A DNA stretch of 64,000 nucleotides from Limnohabitans sp. (GTDB lineage: Bacteria; Pseudomonadota; Gammaproteobacteria; Burkholderiales; Burkholderiaceae_C). The stretch lies in NCBI RefSeq assembly GCF_023910625.1, contig NZ_JAAVVW010000002.1:62001-126000 (forward strand), written 5' to 3'. Shown here piece by piece: positions 24,677 to 24,800 of this stretch (its first letter is position 1; every line of letters begins with the position of its first letter). The notes below the pieces were generated by a model. The model ran no database searches. It saw nothing but the letters and a program-made list of their open reading frames with translations, and was not told where the DNA came from. Both the position numbers and the translations under genes were made by a program.

Positions 24677-24800
24677 TCACTGACGGGCACGCACCAACCG
24701 AACTTGGCCGTTGTAGTTGCGGTTGCTGTCGTAGACGTAGCCGTCGTCGAAATTGACGTTCCAGGCGCCGCTGCTATTGCCCACATGCGGCGAAGACGAC
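24677..24800 (-). repeat. Candidate variable region (VR) 1
   Basis: Codons 707-760 of the 24-kb block (24707-24760) are nearly all NNC/NNT. Compared with VR 2, twelve of eighteen differ and only one differs in its third base. The flanking 24677-24706 block and the 22 bases beyond the stop are identical in both copies. Confidence 0.55.

Follow-up and report, generated by a model that had tools for sequence, protein, structure and literature searches.

In the diversity-generating retroelement (DGR) of Bordetella phage BPP-1, mutagenic homing is directed into a variable region (VR) that is followed by the IMH and then by a GC-rich hairpin, and the reverse transcriptase (RT) and the template (TR) lie alongside. 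According to the cited portion of PMC3240598, hairpins of phage DGRs have a stem of 7-10 bp and a GRNA loop, that of BPP-1 combining an 8-bp stem with a GRNA-type loop. Annotated DGR targets have C-type-lectin folds, as stated in the part of the survey PMC8144416 used here. The passages cited from PMC4891356 describe Treponema denticola isolates harboring DGR target genes in the absence of RT and TR; many of these orphan targets are lipoproteins with lectin-like ends, and the templates of other isolates directly display adenine mismatches. Orphan DGR targets are therefore a kind already known.

We describe here two genes, designated A and B, that resemble the T. denticola orphans in being putative VR targets in a genome in which neither RT nor TR of a DGR was found. 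In contrast to the orphans described in those passages of PMC4891356, A and B are located on an apparent conjugative element, and no cognate template was found for them. Their likeness to BPP-1 would consist in mutagenic homing into a VR and in an IMH-like tail with a putative GC-rich hairpin behind it. They differ from the phage system, as presented in the cited portion of PMC3240598, in having neither RT nor TR alongside and in the form of the hairpin, since its stem of 5 bp is under the range of 7-10 bp and its loop is GCAA rather than GRNA. The C-terminal domain of Legionella Lcl (Pfam Lcl_C; PDB 8q4e) is similar to that of A and B in family and predicted fold, whereas the N-termini are different and Lcl itself was not tied to a DGR in this analysis.

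The window, i.e. the whole stretch of 64,000 nucleotides that was analyzed (C2:62001-126000; positions within it are prefixed by w), belongs to a genome of 3.17 Mb assembled in 3 contigs and rated 100% complete. Five matches to the domain of A were clustered within ~43 kb on one strand of contig C2 (A to E; Table 1), a sixth Lcl_C domain of the genome being located on C3. The Lcl_C scores of A and B were 59.5 and 51.3 bits, respectively (cut-off 34.9). The suggestion of the earlier note that the variable region belongs to a surface lipoprotein was retained for A, which contains in its N-terminus the sequence MKKIFCVIAITAC, presumably a lipobox-like motif, but not for B, which starts with MDSKSYQ and has no lipobox.

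Table 1. Positions of genes A and B, of their parts, and of the paralogous domains of contig C2.
Feature	Position	Strand	Description
Gene A	w24677..25267	(-)	196 aa; N-terminal lipobox-like motif; C-terminal Lcl_C (PF07603)
A variable core, DGR VR-like	w24707..24790	(-)	28 codons
A invariant tail including stop, IMH-like	w24677..24706	(-)	Identical to B
A hairpin 3' of stop	w24658..24671	(-)	5-bp stem GCGGC/GCCGC, loop GCAA
Gene B	w33219..34097	(-)	292 aa; N-terminus unlike A; C-terminal Lcl_C
B variable core, DGR VR-like	w33249..33335	(-)	29 codons, one more than A
B invariant tail including stop	w33219..33248	(-)	
B GC hairpin 3' of stop	w33200..33213	(-)	Same sequence as A
Gene C	w10339..11007	(-)	Lcl_C paralogue, domain 47% identical, without A/B tail
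A domain match	w24680-24955		C2
B domain match	w33222-33500		C2
C domain match	w10348-10608		C2
D domain match	C2:52574-52846		
E, fragment	C2:58189-58320		

Scanning of 20 ORFs around A and B revealed matches to conjugation and type IV secretion families (TrbL, coupling protein, and TraI_2, with a TraG match just under its cut-off), and the region therefore looks, from its gene content, like a conjugative element. Further matches among these ORFs were to the DnaN central domain, an SMC/AAA-type ATPase, a DNA methylase, and an intein-containing ribonucleotide reductase. The large subunit of the latter, with its LAGLIDADG-containing intein, occupies w28830-32447, and the apparent conjugative element encodes, at w8858-10012, a protein with the central domain of DNA polymerase III beta.

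Repeated sequences were also observed in the window. A 22-bp perfect palindrome, GACCGCCCAAATTTGGGCGGTC, is present at w1809, 8753, 24606, 33147, 38249, and 38299 (5 of these copies being exact and 1 containing one mismatch; chance expectation 0), a single copy lying downstream of A and a single copy downstream of B. A stretch of ~114 kb of contig C2 contains 8 exact copies of it, including 3 beyond the window. The sequence CTTTCATCAAC was found 9 times, every copy being on the minus strand (w10227, 17754, 19870, 23726, 24466, 26456, 27806, 33008, and 34131; chance expectation 0.03), and a longer form, GAAAGCCTNNNAGCTTNNTCCTTTCATCAAC, 4 times with at most 3 mismatches, one of these copies being directly upstream of the start of B. 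The two forms look like a repeated gene leader of the conjugative element.

Comparison of A and B revealed an unusual distribution of substitutions. Twelve of the 18 codons preceding the invariant block differ, all by nonsynonymous changes distributed 9/8/1 over codon positions 1/2/3 of the codon alignment, in agreement with the single third-base difference reported in the earlier note. In the wider core, which comprises 28 aligned codons and an indel codon (B having one extra codon within the variable stretch), 19 codons differ, of which 19 are nonsynonymous and 0 synonymous, with differences distributed 14/11/2. The two third-base differences are at alignment codons 68 and 87, the former depending on gap placement because it is close to the indel. 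The 57 upstream codons, used as a control, displayed a distribution of 9/5/19, with 13 nonsynonymous and 12 synonymous codons. The proportion of differences at positions 1 and 2 versus position 3 was different between upstream and core regions (Fisher, p=4.1e-5), as was the frequency of third-base differences (19/57 upstream versus 2/40, p=8.5e-4). Thus, third bases diverge normally in the 57 codons upstream, and the pattern is not accounted for by equally low third-base divergence elsewhere. The preference for codons ending in C or T held on recounting (core, 25/28 in A and 26/29 in B; upstream, 37/57 in A and 34/57 in B), as did the identity of A and B over the 30 bases through the stop codon and exactly 22 bases past it. 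The last ten codons of the two genes are identical.

A structural model of the A domain based on 14 sequences reached a pLDDT of 74 and a pTM of 0.72, the five models spanning 61 to 74. In a Foldseek comparison it matched 8q4e, the C-terminal domain of Legionella Lcl (E=1.3e-4), which was also the sole match of the sequence profile in the PDB, whereas C-type lectins were matched only weakly (E of 0.27 and above). The C-terminal VR is thereby predicted to be located in a C-type-lectin-like domain, which may bind a ligand.

The aligned domains A to D served to retrieve relatives of the targets, and 81 loci (15 viral and 66 from genomes) were fetched. An adenine-biased repeat pair, defined by at least 85% of the mismatches falling on adenines of one copy, was present in 11 of the 81 loci (10 viral and 1 genome). 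The repeat pairs having been selected by this filter, they derive their weight from an independent criterion, the RT match: a DGR RT profile, built from the reverse transcriptases of 8 of the 11 loci, matched in the same 11 loci and in 0 of the other 70. Likewise, the finding that 285 of 285 mismatches were on adenines is without evidential weight, as it follows by construction from tracts ending before the first non-adenine mismatch. DGR-bearing viral contigs hold 10 of the 15 viral relatives, L043 and L044 being apparently one virus seen twice. For 7 loci without a DGR RT nearby, a search of the corresponding genomes or records gave a single weak match (E=1.4e-12, genome of L055). Pairs of VRs located beside intact DGRs in the 11 RT-bearing loci and in the congeneric genome G060 displayed 115 differences, 0 of them at third bases (8 of 12 pairs, those with a single open frame, the 4 with two open frames being excluded). 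The pattern observed between A and B is thus typical of DGR targets, in a slightly blurred form.

From the conserved Trp on, the relatives' templates display a regular comb of codons whose first or second base is adenine. This comb was superimposed on A and B using 7 template rows, L039 and L043 being dropped because they are one codon longer, and L040 because its gene copy was unmatched to its template at the offsets tried. Template-adenine columns comprised 11 of the 12 columns variable between A and B versus 4 of the 14 constant columns (p=0.0016). The match was best at zero shift, shifts of -2 and +1 still giving p=0.011 and 0.029, respectively. Because there is no template against which A and B could be aligned, we infer the probable adenine specificity of their changes from the comparison of two copies. 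Changes at adenine-derived positions with sparing of third bases are therefore seen indirectly, from the two copies and the templates of relatives, and with two third-base exceptions.

A and B end with GTTCGGTTGGTGCGTGCC CGT CAG TGA TTTGG, followed by GCGGC GCAA GCCGC. In 7 of the 11 DGR loci examined (L039-L043, L046, and L049), the homology between template and at least one VR ends with GGT or AGT and then CAGT, the stop codon often adjoining. A separate table of tails covers 44 of the 81 loci, 8 of these 44 being without a clean frame. The hairpin folded better than the majority of shuffled sequences, 8 and 12 of 200 of these equalling it, and no comparable hairpin was present in 18 of 23 VR rows of the DGR loci. 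The exact 18-base tail had 0 matches in the viral contig collection, and a longer tail was found only in the present genome among 399 genomes of the order, a sample that does not contain the congeneric genome G066. The top-scoring viral relative of the domain (L037:7962-8261) is 45% identical; its end is VR-like and its tail reads GCCAGTCAGTAATTGG, but a search of the 31-kb record gave no RT match, and a template was not found within the locus. It may be another orphan target or a fragment. Since the tail motif is also present in this RT-less record, it marks a target family and does not prove an adjoining DGR.

The domain of A was matched in 4 of 90 congeneric genomes (G000, G060, G066, and G100) and the DGR RT profile in 2 of the 90 at E<=1e-20 (present genome included in the search). 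The DGR of genome G060 (L130:7485-11573) comprises an RT, a template, and three VRs, its tail being unlike that of A and B. In G066 (L131), two Lcl_C genes flank an Avd ORF (phrog_3206, E=4.2e-8) and a partial RT, which has the motif YVGDF in place of YVDDF and covers positions 91-187 of 205 of the Pfam profile (20.6 bits, under the cut-off). No template was found at this DGR, which is decayed. Its targets end with GTTCGG(T/G)TGGTGCGTGCCAGTCAGTGAT, nearly identical to the tail of A and B, and a GC-rich inverted repeat is present past the stop codon. The G066 locus therefore shares with A and B the domain and the target end, and differs from the present genome in retaining the Avd ORF and part of the RT. 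Within a single genus, therefore, one DGR has RT, template, and VRs, another is decayed, and orphan targets are found in the present genome. Elsewhere, the A domain was found only in the own genome in a comparison with 59 relatives, and no match was obtained for the protein query P0001 against plasmids and phages or for w24000-45000 against plasmids; four stretches matched by P0001 in viral contigs were not confirmed.

A search of the whole genome for a DGR RT and an AAC-rich template, as recommended in the earlier note, recovered neither in the 3-contig assembly. The genome encodes seven RTs (PF00078), matched by the DGR RT profile over partial stretches and with E-values of 6e-15 or weaker, as compared with 1.6e-97 for the RT of G060. 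For the three that were typed, the top NCBIfam model was the group II intron maturase TIGR04416 (410, 349, and 276 bits for a cut-off of 300). Three of the untyped RTs have a 392-aa frame, the same length as the 276-bit RT, and the fourth has 453 aa. Given that the three typed RTs best fit the intron maturase model, the RTs of the genome were rejected as the enzyme responsible for mutagenesis. A template search with a degenerate VR query returned A, B, and one 32-base match (E=0.745); a search for the tail with at most 3 mismatches returned, in addition to A, B, and E, four sites devoid of VR-like sequence. Fragment E was rejected as a template because it has many non-adenine differences from A and B, another tail, and variable columns that are mixed rather than AAY-rich. 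No bAvd was detected in the genome at E<=1, a weak negative since the Pfam scan (E<=0.01) also missed the Avd ORF of G066 called with PHROGs.

Together, the substitution signature, the match to template adenines, and the tail of G066 speak for the initial proposal of a DGR footprint in the C-type-lectin/DUF1566 end (Pfam Lcl_C) of these genes. The genome contains no complete DGR, however, and this is half of the refuting observation named in the earlier note. We consider it very probable that A and B originated as DGR targets, whether as relics or as targets served in trans. In the proposed mechanism, copying of an adenine-rich template by a DGR reverse transcriptase, with misincorporation opposite adenines, would have yielded a cDNA that replaced the VR ahead of the invariant IMH-like tail by retrohoming in the lineage. 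Surface residues of the C-type-lectin-like domain would thus be randomized, with sparing of the third bases (C or T of AAY codons). Later loss of the RT and template would leave A and B as orphan targets with fixed variants. This is the reading that we favor as the probable one, and relic status is likelier than service in trans. The two third-base differences and the one-codon indel are contrary to a single shared template.

A and B could instead be live targets rewritten in trans by a DGR located on a phage, a plasmid, or another element that is missing from the assembly or transient. This is conceivable, although rather unlikely: the target end is intact in both genes, with 52 identical bases about the stop codon, remote DGR targets are known (cited parts of PMC8144416 and PMC4891356), and related targets are mostly on DGR-carrying viral contigs (10/15), whereas no RT or template is present in an assembly rated 100% complete and the exact 18-base tail is missing from the viral contig collection. 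It is doubtful that the conjugative element carries A and B as RT-less client targets, with ends kept under selection, in a split, satellite-like DGR; incoming DGRs, arriving on phages or encountered in new hosts, would then diversify the two genes in trans.

A history without retroelement, in which duplication was followed by positive selection fixing replacing changes in a ligand-binding loop, is improbable. It would fit the location of the variable residues within a lectin-like domain and the general divergence of Lcl_C domains, but not the concentration of 25 of the 27 differences at the first two codon positions, the count of 0 silent codons, the coincidence of variable columns with template-adenine columns, or the target end common to a congener's decayed DGR. 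Antigenic variation by gene conversion from silent cassettes, for which E offers a VR-only fragment ~28 kb from A, is most improbable, as a single E-like fragment was found, E has many third-base and tail differences from A and B, and conversion would homogenize all codon positions.

A and B, which are probably orphan targets that have lost their RT and template, bear a clear DGR footprint that is legible in the absence of both, here on an apparent conjugative element. The titles and abstract openings searched in the open-licence literature announced no case of orphan DGR targets carried by conjugative elements, which does not prove their absence. Surveys starting from the RT would overlook orphan targets such as A and B. 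Because the DGR of G060, the decayed DGR of G066, and the orphan A and B coexist in one genus, the loss of DGRs and the possible service of their targets in trans are testable there.
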